From positions 744,001-808,000 of the forward strand of contig NZ_CP035952.1 in the NCBI RefSeq assembly GCF_004214895.1: 64,000 nt of DNA. Direction: 5' to 3'. The DNA comes from Pseudomonas tructae. GTDB taxonomy: Bacteria; Pseudomonadota; Gammaproteobacteria; Pseudomonadales; Pseudomonadaceae. The position numbers and the translations under genes are program-made. Shown here piece by piece: positions 30,750-46,489 of this stretch (position 1 is the first letter of the stretch; every line of letters starts with the position of its first letter). The notes below the pieces were generated by a model. That model made no database searches, was not told the DNA's origin, and saw only the letters and a program-made list of their open reading frames with translations.

Positions 30750-31595
30750 TCAGCGGGGCAACTTGAGGTTGCTCCAGATCGCCAGGCTTGGTTCGGCCTG
30801 GTTCAGGGTGTAGAAGTGCAACCCTGGAGCGCCGCCTTGCAGCAGTTGCTCGCACATGCGGGTGATGACCTCTTCACCGAACTGCTGGATGCTTTTGACG
30901 TCATCGCCATAGGCTTCCAGCTGTTTGCGGATCCAGCGCGGGATCTCGGCGCCGCAGGCGTCGGAGAAGCGCGCCAGTTTGCTGTAGTTGGTGATCGGCA
31001 TGATCCCCGGCACTACAGGAATATCCACGCCCATCTGCTGCACGCGCTCGACGAAGTAGAAGTAGCTGTCAGCGTTGAAGAAGTACTGGGTGATGGCGCT
31101 GTTGGCACCGGCCTTGGCCTTGCGCACGAAGTTGTTCAGGTCATCTTCGAAGTTGCGCGCCTGGGGGTGCATCTCCGGGTAAGCGGCAACTTCGATGTGG
31201 AAGTGCTCACCGCTTTCCTGGCGGATGAACTCCACCAGTTCGTTGGCGTAGCGCAGCTCGCCGCTGGCCATGCCCATGCCTGATGGCAGGTCGCCGCGCA
31301 GGGCGACGATGCGCTGGATGCCGGCGGCCTTGTACTGGGTCAGCAGCGAGCGCAGGTCATCCTTGCTGTCGCCGACGCACGACAGGTGCGGGGCCGCCGG
31401 TACTTTCACTTCGTTTTCCAGCTGCAGCACGGTGTTGAGCGTGCGGTCGCGGGTCGAGCCACCGGCACCGTAGGTGCAGGAGAAAAAATCAGGGTTGTAG
31501 CTGGCCAGCTGACGGGCAGTGGCGAGCAGTTTTTCATGTCCAGCATCGGTCTTGGTCGGGAAGAACTCGAAGCTGTAACGACGTTCTTGAGACAT
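30750..31595 (-). CDS. metF: 5,10-methylenetetrahydrofolate reductase
   Basis: 281-aa FAD-dependent reductase that produces 5-methyl-THF for methionine synthesis. It begins MSQERRYSFEFFPTKTDAG, and GAGGSTRDRTL, HLSCVG, LRGD and ITQYFFNAD segments are clear. AGGA lies 7 nt before the ATG. It is downstream of ahcY on the same strand but a strong terminator hairpin lies between them, so it may be partly expressed by readthrough or from its own promoter. It is functionally linked with ahcY and metK in the SAM cycle. Confidence 0.96.
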   Translation of the reverse strand: MSQERRYSFEFFPTKTDAGHEKLLATARQLASYNPDFFSCTYGAGGSTRDRTLNTVLQLENEVKVPAAPHLSCVGDSKDDLRSLLTQYKAAGIQRIVALRGDLPSGMGMASGELRYANELVEFIRQESGEHFHIEVAAYPEMHPQARNFEDDLNNFVRKAKAGANSAITQYFFNADSYFYFVERVQQMGVDIPVVPGIMPITNYSKLARFSDACGAEIPRWIRKQLEAYGDDVKSIQQFGEEVITRMCEQLLQGGAPGLHFYTLNQAEPSLAIWSNLKLPR

Positions 31596-31691: not shown

Positions 31692-33326
<1,635 letters not shown>

Positions 33327-40156: not shown

Positions 40157-41911
<1,755 letters not shown>

Positions 41912-41956
41912 TCATGTGTCGAGGTGAGTGCTTCGCCCCCGAGCGCGGGCCAAATG

Positions 41957-41990
41957 AAAAGCCCCGGCCAGTTACCCGGCCAGGGCTTTT
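41957..41990 (-). terminator. Terminator downstream of metK
   Basis: AAAAGCCC-CGGCC and GGCC-A-GGGCTTTT form an interrupted GC-rich stem ending in a T4 run on the minus strand, 38 bp after the metK stop. The symmetric A/T ends would allow some function in both directions. Confidence 0.7.
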
Positions 41991-42022
41991 ACTTGCAGCT
42001 TGTAACTTGAAGCTTGTGGCTC
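41991..42022. repeat. AGCTTG-type intergenic repeat, copy 3
   Basis: ACTTGCAGCTTGTAACTTGAAGCTTG, next to the metK stop and terminator, resembles the repeats near 12.1 and 35.2 kb. Function is unknown. Confidence 0.5.
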
Positions 42023-42027
42023 AGCCC

Positions 42028-43218
<1,191 letters not shown>

Positions 43219-43230
43219 CTCGACGGGTTC

Positions 43231-44232
43231 CTAAAATTTACCGATGGTGGTGTCGCCAGCCGGTCGCTGAAAATGGCGGACCTGAATCTGGAAACCATTA
43301 CGTAAGCCCACATAGAGGCTGTCCCCGGGAGCCAGTCCCGCAGCGCTGGCCCAACGGGCCAGGTCGTCCTGCTCAAAGCCCAGCCAGATATCGCCACAGG
43401 CCTCTCTGGCCCAGTTCTGGTCGTGGCTGCACAACTCTGTTACCAACAGGCTGCCGCCTGGTTTCACACGGTTGGCCAGCTGCCGCAGGGCTTCGGCCGG
43501 GGCGCTGAAATGGTGCAGGACCATGTTCAGCACTACGCAGTCGGCTTCCACATCCGTTGCACTGAGTGCATCGGCCAACTGCAGGTTCACATTAGCCAGA
43601 CCTTCGCGCTCGCAGACCTGGCGGGCCAGGTCGAGCATGGTCGGACTGTTGTCCAGAGCCGTGACCCGGGTAAAACGCCGGGCCAGCTCGGGAAGAAACT
43701 CACCATCGCCGGGGCCCACTTCAAGGGCGTCGGCGTTGGCTTCGAAGCTGAGTTTGTCGAGCAGCGCGAGCAGGCTTTCGCGGTACTGCGGCAAGCCGGC
43801 GATCAGGTCCTGCTGGGCGCGGAATTTTTCTTCGACACGCAGGAAAAAGTCCTGGCTGGTGGCCGCGCGCCGCTGTTGCACCTGGGCGATACGCGCCTGC
43901 ACTTCATCGGCCAGGCTCAAGCTGTCGACCTCGTCGAGCAGTGCGGCATGCAGCTTGCCGCCGAGGCTGAGGCCATCGGGCAGGGCGCGGCGGTAGAAGA
44001 TCGCATTGCCTTCGCGGCGGGTCGCCACCAGGCCAGCCTGGGCCAGCACCTTGAGGTGATGGCTCATGCCCGACTGGCCGATGGCGAAGATCTGCGCCAG
44101 CTCCAGTACCCCGAACGAATCGCTGGCCAATGCGCGCAATACGTTCAGGCGCAACGGATCGCCGCCGGCCTTGCACAGGGCGGCCAGCGCATCGCTTTGC
44201 TCTTGACGGATCGACGGTACGGGCAGGTTCAT
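43231..44232 (-). CDS. ArsR-family HTH / SAM-dependent methyltransferase fusion regulator
   Basis: 333-aa two-domain protein. Residues about 15-85 form an ArsR-type winged helix (PLRLNVLRALASDSFGVLELAQIF, SGMSHHLKVLAQAGLV, GNAIFYRRA) with no Cys metal-site motif of the CxC type. Residues about 165-300 are a class I methyltransferase fold with SAM motif EVGPGDGEF (171-179) and VLNMVLHHF (234-242). It is upstream of metK with a 12-bp gap. A SAM- or SAH-sensing repressor of metK is the natural inference, by analogy with the ArsR-family SahR. No Shine-Dalgarno sequence precedes the ATG and the predicted start of transcription lies very close, so the mRNA may be leaderless. Confidence 0.9.
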   Translation of the reverse strand: MNLPVPSIRQEQSDALAALCKAGGDPLRLNVLRALASDSFGVLELAQIFAIGQSGMSHHLKVLAQAGLVATRREGNAIFYRRALPDGLSLGGKLHAALLDEVDSLSLADEVQARIAQVQQRRAATSQDFFLRVEEKFRAQQDLIAGLPQYRESLLALLDKLSFEANADALEVGPGDGEFLPELARRFTRVTALDNSPTMLDLARQVCEREGLANVNLQLADALSATDVEADCVVLNMVLHHFSAPAEALRQLANRVKPGGSLLVTELCSHDQNWAREACGDIWLGFEQDDLARWASAAGLAPGDSLYVGLRNGFQIQVRHFQRPAGDTTIGKF

Positions 44233-44240
44233 GGAGCGGC

Positions 44241-44269
44241 AGTCTAGTCAGGCAGCGAAAAGGTCGCAA
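44241..44269 (-). promoter_or_regulatory. Weak sigma70-like promoter for the ArsR-MTase/metK unit
   Basis: On the minus strand TTGCGA (44269-44264) and TAGACT (44246-44241) are 17 bp apart, four of six matches each. The 26-bp palindrome lies 2 bp upstream of the -35. Transcription would start within a few bases of the ATG at 44232. Confidence 0.4.
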
Positions 44270-44271
44270 GG

Positions 44272-44297
44272 GCAATATCAAAAAGTTTTGATATTGC
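44272..44297. promoter_or_regulatory. 26-bp palindromic operator candidate upstream of the ArsR-MTase/metK unit
   Basis: Perfect 12-bp arms, GCAATATCAAAA and TTTTGATATTGC, around a 2-bp centre. It is 40-65 bp upstream of the ArsR-MTase start, in the divergent gap to tktA. ArsR proteins bind such AT-rich inverted repeats, and ATATCAA/TTGATAT-type sites are used by SAH-responsive ArsR regulators in other bacteria (recalled, not checked). Autoregulation with metK is inferred. Confidence 0.75.
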
Positions 44298-44491
44298 GCG
44301 ATGGGCGGGGCAATTCGTCGCAGGCTGCGCAACCGATCCGGCTGTTTGCCCGGCTTTACGCCTGATTCTTCTCTCAATCACAGGAAAATCATGCTGCATC
44401 GACCATCCGTCATTGCCCCCGGGCACGTGCCTGGGCGAAAATGGCCGCCTTTTTTCGTTTCGTAACTAATTCAACACCCAGGAGATAAGCG

Positions 44492-46489
44492 ATGCCCAGC
44501 CGTCGTGAGCGTGCCAACGCCATTCGTGCCCTCAGCATGGATGCCGTGCAAAAGGCCAACAGCGGCCACCCCGGTGCCCCTATGGGCATGGCGGATATCG
44601 CCGAGGTTCTTTGGCGTGACTACCTGAAGCACAACCCGACCAACCCGAACTTCGCTGACCGTGACCGCTTCGTGCTGTCCAACGGCCACGGCTCGATGCT
44701 GATCTACTCGCTGTTGCACCTGACCGGCTACGATCTGTCGATCGACGATCTGAAGAGCTTCCGTCAGCTGCACAGCCGTACCCCGGGTCACCCGGAGTTC
44801 GGTTATACCCCGGGCGTCGAGACCACCACTGGCCCGTTGGGTCAGGGCCTGGCCAATGCCGTTGGTTTCGCCTTGGCGGAAAAAGTCCTGGCGAGTCAGT
44901 TCAACCGCAAGGACCACAACATCGTCGACCACCACACCTATGTGTTCCTGGGTGATGGTTGCATGATGGAAGGCATTTCCCACGAAGTCGCTTCCCTGGC
45001 CGGTACCCTGGGCCTGGGCAAACTGATTGCCTTCTATGATGACAACGGCATCTCCATCGACGGCGAAGTCGAAGGCTGGTTCACCGATGACACCCCTAAG
45101 CGTTTTGAAGCCTACAACTGGCAGGTGATCCGCAATGTCGACGGCCACGATCCGGAAGAGATCAAGACTGCCATCGACACCGCTCGCAAGAGCGCGCAGC
45201 CGACGCTGATCTGCTGCAAGACCACCATCGGTTTCGGCTCGCCGAACAAAGGTGGCAAGGAAGACTGCCACGGCGCTCCATTGGGTGACGCGGAAATCGC
45301 CCTGACCCGCGAAGCGTTGAAGTGGAACCACGGCCCGTTCGAAATCCCGGCTGACATCTACGCCGAGTGGGACGCAAAGGAAGCTGGCAAGGCCGTTGAG
45401 GCCGAGTGGGAGCAGCGTTTCGATGCCTACGCCGCTGAGTTCCCCGAGTTGGCCATCGAGTTTGGTGCACGCATGAACGGCGACCTGCCGTTGGACTTCG
45501 CCCGTTGTGCCGACGAATACATCGCTGAAGTCGCGGCCAAAGGTGAAACCATCGCCAGCCGTAAAGCCAGCCAGAACACCCTGAATGCCTTCGGCCCGCT
45601 GTTGCCGGAACTGTTCGGCGGTTCGGCTGACCTGGCCGGTTCCAACCTGACCCTGTGGAAAGGTTGCAAGGGCGTCAGCGCCGAAGACGCCAGCGGCAAC
45701 TACATGTACTACGGCGTGCGCGAGTTCGGCATGACCGCGATCATGAACGGCGTTGCCCTGCACGGCGGCCTGGTGCCTTACGGCGCAACCTTCCTGATGT
45801 TCATGGAATATGCGCGTAACGCAGTACGCATGTCGGCGCTGATGAAACAGCGCGTCATTCACGTCTACACCCACGACTCCATCGGTCTGGGCGAAGACGG
45901 CCCGACCCACCAGCCGATCGAGCAACTGACCTGCCTGCGCAGCACGCCGAACTTGGACACCTGGCGCCCAGCCGATGCCGTCGAGTCGGCGGTTTCCTGG
46001 AAGTTCGCCCTGGAGCGTAAAGACGGCCCTTCGGCGCTGATCTTCTCGCGTCAGAACCTGCAGCACCAAACCCGTGACGCCGGTCAGATCGCTGACATCA
46101 GCCGTGGCGGCTACGTGTTGAAAGACTGCGCAGGCGAGCCTGAGCTGATCCTCATCGCTACCGGTTCCGAAGTGGGCCTGGCCGTTCAGGCATACGACAA
46201 ACTGACCGAGCAAGGCCGCAAGGCCCGCGTCGTTTCGATGCCGTGCACCAGTGTGTTCGATGCCCAGGACGCTTCGTACAAGCAGTCGGTGCTGCCGCTG
46301 GAAGTCGGTGCGCGTATTGCCATCGAAGCGGCCCATGCCGACTTCTGGTACAAGTACGTCGGCCTCGAAGGCCGCGTCATCGGCATGACCACCTACGGCG
46401 AGTCGGCACCTGCGTCGGCCCTGTTCGAAGAGTTCGGTTTCACCCTGGAAAACATCCTGGGTACTGCTGAAGAGCTGCTAGAAGACTGA
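44492..46489 (+). CDS. tktA: Transketolase
   Basis: 665-aa thiamine-diphosphate enzyme of the pentose phosphate pathway. Motifs: [18 protein letters not shown] near residue 22, the ThDP segment [18 protein letters not shown] near residue 155, and [20 protein letters not shown] near residue 470. AGGAG lies 7 nt before the ATG. It heads the tktA-epd-pgk-fba run, a common arrangement in pseudomonads that links erythrose-4-phosphate formation to its oxidation by Epd. A REP pair separates it from epd. Confidence 0.97.

Follow-up and report, generated by a model that had tools for sequence, protein, structure and literature searches.

A probable SahR-metK unit in Pseudomonas tructae and the placing of its predicted operator at the promoter

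Background

SahR is an ArsR-family regulator responsive to S-adenosylhomocysteine (SAH) that was described in Desulfovibrio alaskensis, with regulons in the alpha-, gamma- and deltaproteobacteria (PMC4239095), and it is listed in all eight Pseudomonadaceae of that reconstruction (Leyn et al. 2014, PMC4239095). Its core targets are sahR itself, ahcY, metH, metH2, metF and metK, and its site is a 20-bp palindrome with the common consensus ATC-10nt-GAT (PMC4239095). The reported effector is SAH (PMC4239095, PMC8877191), the protein is described or predicted as a repressor, and a sahR mutant of Ensifer aridi supports autoregulation (PMC8877191).

Two further systems are close to it. SamR is a distant SahR homologue (~30%) known from the Xanthomonadales only, where it lies beside metH genes; that it responds to S-adenosylmethionine (SAM) is a proposal, made from a regulon that contains metK without other SAM-cycle genes (PMC4239095). 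The SAH riboswitch shares the ligand logic of SahR but is an RNA device; such riboswitches are reported in seven of eight Pseudomonadaceae, with metK not under their control (PMC4239095).

The sahR-metK locus

The window analysed here is a stretch of 64,000 nt from Pseudomonas tructae (contig NZ_CP035952.1). A first-pass annotation made from the letters alone had singled out 43231-44297 as the head of a candidate SAM-sensing unit, and this range corresponds to the sahR gene, its leader and the palindrome before it (Table 1).

Table 1. Features of the sahR-metK region and of the ahcY-metF region in the window
Feature	Position in window	Strand	Basis
metF, methylenetetrahydrofolate reductase, 279 aa, after ahcY	30756..31595	-	NCBIfam above cut-off
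ahcY, adenosylhomocysteinase, 468 aa, behind SAH riboswitch	31695..33101	-	NCBIfam above cut-off
SAH riboswitch RF01057, 66.7 bits (gathering score 37)	33123..33227 (genome 777123-777227)	-	Rfam
metK, methionine adenosyltransferase, 396 aa	42028..43218	-	NCBIfam above cut-off
sahR, 333 aa, ArsR winged helix joined to a class I methyltransferase-fold domain of SAM/SAH-binding type	43231..44232	-	ORF, Pfam
Predicted -10 TAGACT, 17-nt spacer, 8 nt before sahR ATG	44241..44246	-	Conserved pattern
Predicted -35 TTGCGA, 5 nt past operator core	44264..44269	-	Conserved pattern
Predicted palindromic operator, 26 bp, GCAATATCAAAA-AG-TTTTGATATTGC	44272..44297	.	Sequence, conservation
tktA, transketolase, divergent neighbour of sahR	44492..46489	+	NCBIfam above cut-off

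The ORF call and the Pfam domains agree with the earlier view of the sahR product as an ArsR-methyltransferase fusion. HTH_20/HTH_5 occupy residues 24-71 (PF12840 at 39.9 bits, cut-off 27; PF01022 at 34.7 bits, cut-off 22), and five methyltransferase families match residues ~151-297, all above cut-off. The class I fold is complete with motif I intact. Its glycines, like the Asp of motif II, do not vary among the 24 sequences aligned, the farthest of which have 23-30% identity to the first row of the alignment. The suggestion that the domain is too small for an enzyme could be dismissed, as the top structural match is NodS (3ofk_B, 196 residues, an N-methyltransferase by the title of the structure), which is of similar size.

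Both genes lie on the minus strand and are separated by the 12 nt previously noted, with an AGGA that overlaps the sahR stop codon ahead of metK. As this metK is the sole match in the genome at E <= 1e-5, the SahR unit heads the only SAM synthetase gene found here and so probably sets the supply of methyl donor. The divergent tktA and the SAH riboswitch before ahcY-metF were both missing from the first-pass annotation.

Motif, targets, domain type and taxon make it likely that this locus represents SahR-metK in its Pseudomonas form, a unit that would then be already described, since the published regulon reconstruction covers the Pseudomonadaceae (8/8 genomes); for the same reason SahR, rightly named at first pass as a precedent, is more than that. 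This unit is like SahR in having an ArsR regulator, in its taxon, in its 20-bp ATC-N10-GAT palindrome and in its targets, its own gene and metK; site position and gene order point to SahR targets both here (sahR-metK) and in relatives (ahcY/metF/metH). It is unlike the published SahR in that there is one site in the genome, with ahcY and metF not behind it but behind a SAH riboswitch, and in that the operator lies outside the -35 of a probably leaderless gene; the words "leaderless" and "promoter" are absent from the main text of PMC4239095. SamR, as a distant SahR homologue, has metK as a target and the ATC-10nt-GAT pattern in common with this unit, but in Xanthomonas it lies beside metH1/metH2, with a 24-bp motif and a larger methionine regulon (PMC4239095); the neighbours here are metK and tktA. 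What stands of the SAM-sensing proposal is a regulator of SAM/SAH-binding type placed to control its own gene and metK; SAM as the signal is less likely, the reported effector being SAH. Among the literature listed, no experimental work treats the protein of Pseudomonas as SahR, and no binding, ligand or expression data for it were found.

The palindromic operator

The palindrome lies 39 nt upstream of sahR and consists of two arms of 12 nt that are 100% complementary about a 2-nt centre, just as first described. Its 20-bp core, ATATCAAAAAGTTTTGATAT at 44275-44294, has the form ATC-N10-GAT and, spelled AT-ATC-AAAAAGTTTT-GAT-AT, fits the 20-bp gamma/delta-type SahR palindrome. When up to 3 mismatches are allowed there is one match in the window and none in 100 shuffles, and the 5.69-Mb genome has a single exact copy of the core; together with its recurrence at the same place in relatives and the joint changes of its arms, this rules out a chance palindrome.

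A core with <=2 mismatches is present somewhere in 135 of 148 Pseudomonadaceae genomes, the pattern search returning none in the other 13. At the 52 Pseudomonadaceae loci that were inspected (30 best matches, 2 from the pattern search and 20 spread over genera) the site closest to the core sits 26-46 nt ahead of the expected sahR start, with <=2 mismatches in 49; the operators of the other three (L040-L042) have 3-4 mismatches to the core, and that of L041 is still palindromic. Conservation in relatives, proposed earlier as a check, is therefore borne out as to place, and the arms co-vary: positions -1, -3 and -5 are complementary in 99, 72 and 55 of 112 distinct sites, compared with shuffled maxima of 73, 47 and 40, although the sites include related sequences and these counts are thus not a probability.

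Distribution and gene order

At E <= 1e-30 the SahR protein has a match in 144 of the 148 genomes of Pseudomonadaceae, and at E <= 1e-50 in 141 of 194 genomes of the order of the host. In every one of the 52 Pseudomonadaceae loci metK directly follows sahR, and the pair is kept with a palindrome-like site in all seven relatives examined from other families of the order, six of which also have the divergent tktA. A wider scan of genome contigs, of which the best 80 of 591 loci were considered, gave metK next to sahR and a core with <=2 mismatches in 80/80 and a divergent tktA within 600 nt in 58/80. Among the same best 80, ahcY comes after metK in 58, that is in 58 of the 64 loci that are not named Pseudomonas, often with metF present too; in the six others the sequence ends inside metK or 279-541 nt past it. 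None of the 16 loci in this set that are named Pseudomonas has ahcY after metK.

The promoter and the position of the operator

The predicted promoter, TTGCGA-N17-TAGACT, scores 8/12 and falls under the threshold of a consensus scan (9/12), which found none where 0.5 was expected in shuffles; it was read from the alignment and so rests on conservation. In the 52 Pseudomonadaceae loci the core is followed at a distance of 1-6 nt by TTG, the distance being 5 nt in 44; the spacer is 17 nt in 47 and TAGACT is found in 47. The predicted -10 ends 6-10 nt before the sahR ATG (at 44232 in the window), and between the two none of the 52 loci has a Shine-Dalgarno word (AGGA, GGAG, GAGG or AAGG), from which the sahR message is probably leaderless or nearly so. 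A riboswitch within the sahR-metK region was rejected, as 41800-44600 gave no Rfam match with E up to 1.

The orthologue of sahR beside metK in Pseudomonas aeruginosa is presumably PA0547. RNA-seq in that species gave 43 transcripts with leaders under 10 nt (PMC3272035); PA0547, PA0546 and metK are unnamed in the main text of that paper. PA0547 has appeared as a "probable transcriptional regulator" on one insert of a two-insert clone from an aminoglycoside screen (PMC2771283).

The distance between core and -10 falls into two classes, with no locus between them among 68 Pseudomonadaceae loci and 71 from other families, which are related and not all from distinct genomes (L065 and L085 share a contig, as do L030 and L147). 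It is 27-29 nt in 68/68 Pseudomonadaceae loci, where the -35 matches the consensus at 3-4 of 6 positions in 66/68, and 15-16 nt in 67/71 of the others. In those 67 loci TTGATA (TTGATG in one) lies inside the palindrome, and with this short gap it serves as the -35. The 67 comprise 64 found by script, L065 and L085 on a pattern re-check and L095, which has two overlapping palindromes, by eye; the script had first given all three a 32-nt gap, and L065 and L085 then fitted TTGATA-N17-TANNNT. The remaining four (L067, L068, L069 and L141) have a 28-nt gap; these, L095 and L071 are the six of 71 that do not fit that pattern, L071 having a core that departs from the pattern used yet being placed in the 16-nt class by script.

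The classes differ by 12 bp, about one helical turn, the palindrome of Pseudomonadaceae being the farther upstream, and as the 28-nt class is not confined to that family it may have arisen more than once. Where the gap is 15-16 nt SahR should cover the -35, which is the usual layout for a repressor. The Pseudomonadaceae operator sits just outside a weak predicted -35; if the predicted promoter is right its core spans about -60 to -41 and overlaps neither the -35 nor the -10, which would be unusual for a simple blocking repressor. This placing of the operator at the promoter looks to be the new part of the system, and an operator at two discrete helical positions in related lineages offers a clean, testable case.

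The SAH riboswitch and ahcY-metF

The window holds a protein device and an RNA device of the same pathway, sahR and the riboswitch, 10 kb apart on the same strand. A survey of the order found the riboswitch in 19 of 194 genomes, including all eight Pseudomonadaceae in the draw, under stricter filters with which weak matches may be lost. SahR is also carried by 16 of the 19 (the exceptions are G150, G192 and G590), and 13 of these genomes have the two on a single contig, where the riboswitch invariably lies downstream of sahR and on its strand; the other three have them on different contigs. The distance from sahR is 1.2-1.5 kb in five genomes of one family (f7), 4.9-18.2 kb in seven Pseudomonadaceae and 7.7 kb in another genome (G221). 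An Rfam scan of 16 sahR loci found the riboswitch in one, L066 of family f7, where it lies between metK and ahcY, and gave no match in the other 15; from the distance, the other four f7 genomes would have it in the same position.

A plausible path is that a riboswitch was acquired before ahcY in a sahR-metK-ahcY-metF operon, which would later have been split, and the arrangement in family f7 may represent an intermediate stage. The sharing of one cycle between two sensors of the same metabolite, one a protein and the other an RNA, is likewise a clean case for testing.

Proposed mechanism and alternatives

In the mechanism that we propose as the most likely, a SahR dimer would bind the palindrome through its winged helices, with the methyltransferase-like domain acting as a sensor of SAH, or possibly of the SAH:SAM ratio. 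Without SAH, SahR would hold down the adjoining promoter; when SAH builds up it would be released, and a bicistronic sahR-metK message with a leaderless sahR start would rise, restoring SAM against the inhibitory SAH. In parallel SAH would switch on ahcY-metF via the riboswitch and so be removed. With SAH as the effector of SahR, metK would follow the balance between SAM and SAH.

Feedback on metK by its end product in the classical manner, with SAM rather than SAH as the co-effector of a SamR-like variant, is possible but second best to a response to SAH, and we regard it as rather unlikely. It would agree with the sole site in this genome being at sahR-metK, a metK-containing regulon without other SAM-cycle genes being the very argument published for SamR and SAM (PMC4239095); indeed, with ahcY-metF behind a riboswitch, the case for SAH from regulon content is weaker here. 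Against this, other families whose protein is of the same type, and whose motif is the same, have ahcY in the gene row (the 58 of the best 80 loci above), which fits SAH, and SamR itself is distant, confined to the Xanthomonadales and found beside metH genes (PMC4239095). Whether SAH is bound or not, SahR of Pseudomonadaceae might instead activate, helping to recruit RNA polymerase from an operator just upstream of a weak -35. Such a role, which seems improbable, would suit the 27-29 nt gap and poor -35 of that family, set beside the 15-16 nt gap and embedded TTGATA/TTGATG of 67/71 other loci, with a shift of about one helical turn; but a site centred near -50 does not match the positions classically known for activators, and masking an AT-rich upstream element would repress too. 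SahR is, besides, described or predicted as a repressor (PMC8877191).

The remaining alternatives concern the protein. The class I fold is complete, close to NodS in size and intact in motif I, which would allow a catalytically active domain that modifies a target, regulation being secondary; the conserved link with an operator and a gene row of the methionine cycle, the precedent of SahR as a ligand-responsive DNA-binding protein and the lack of a recognised likely substrate gene among the immediate neighbours make this very unlikely. Many database records label the product "metalloregulator", and HTH_metalloreg (NCBIfam) matches it at 72 bits against a cut-off of 55. The metal motif ELCVCDL, however, is missing from the helix that seems to correspond (GVLELAQIF), all loci of the order that were inspected have metK next, and the fused domain is of SAM-binding type; an ordinary metal- or arsenic-sensing ArsR that lies beside metK by chance is thus scarcely credible.

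Within the preferred reading of the locus as a SahR-metK unit, it is conceivable, though only tentatively proposed, that the circuit of Pseudomonadaceae has been rewired, with the operator moved one DNA turn upstream and out of the -35, the regulon shrunk to one site, that of the leaderless sahR-metK transcript, and control of ahcY-metF handed to the SAH riboswitch. SahR may then have a new sign, as an activator or as a masker of an upstream element, or may respond to a new effector, either SAM or its ratio to SAH. What deserves experiment is the geometry of the promoter, together with the way in which SahR and the riboswitch divide the work.

Weak sites and divergent loci

A search for further palindromes near methionine-cycle genes of this genome, raised at first pass, gave none: the core pattern has no second site with <=2 mismatches, and besides the one exact copy at sahR-metK there are three sites with 3 mismatches, compared with two for a reversed control pattern. 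These three were not accepted as SahR sites, given that control and the nature of their neighbours: two chemotaxis-receptor-like ORFs and a permease-like ORF for which NCBIfam gave no match, none of them a gene of the methionine cycle. Two of the weak SahR-like sites, L003:1501-1520 and L004:1501-1520 (genome 2181610-2181629 and 4067897-4067916), are within ~120 nt upstream of ORFs with a relationship to methyl-accepting chemotaxis receptors that scores below the family cut-offs. That of L004 is kept in only the nearest of 12 matched relatives, and that of L003 is partly kept (ATATCAAAAGGCCTT-like) in three, although in two of these the ATC-N10-GAT spacing is no longer exact.

One genome of the Pseudomonadaceae gave its sahR match as two overlapping pieces (G108:C1:2715897-2716876), so that the gene is probably broken there. 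Another of the family, a complete genome, carries an exact SahR core (G029:C1:642745-642764) and yet has no match to the protein at E <= 1e-30.

Among the matches listed, three genomes of one genus have a second exact palindrome directly before metH, which was assigned by NCBIfam in one genome and by similarity to that metH in the other two. Eleven distant loci with 29-35% identity belong to the same phylum and another class, probably the alphaproteobacteria; metF follows the fusion gene in ten of them, and most have, by eye, a different palindrome near the start, ATAAAGATATCTTTAT or close to it. In several loci of this other class (L073-L082) the ATAAAGATATCTTTAT palindrome runs into or adjoins the probable sahR start codon, a geometry that differs from the Pseudomonas type.
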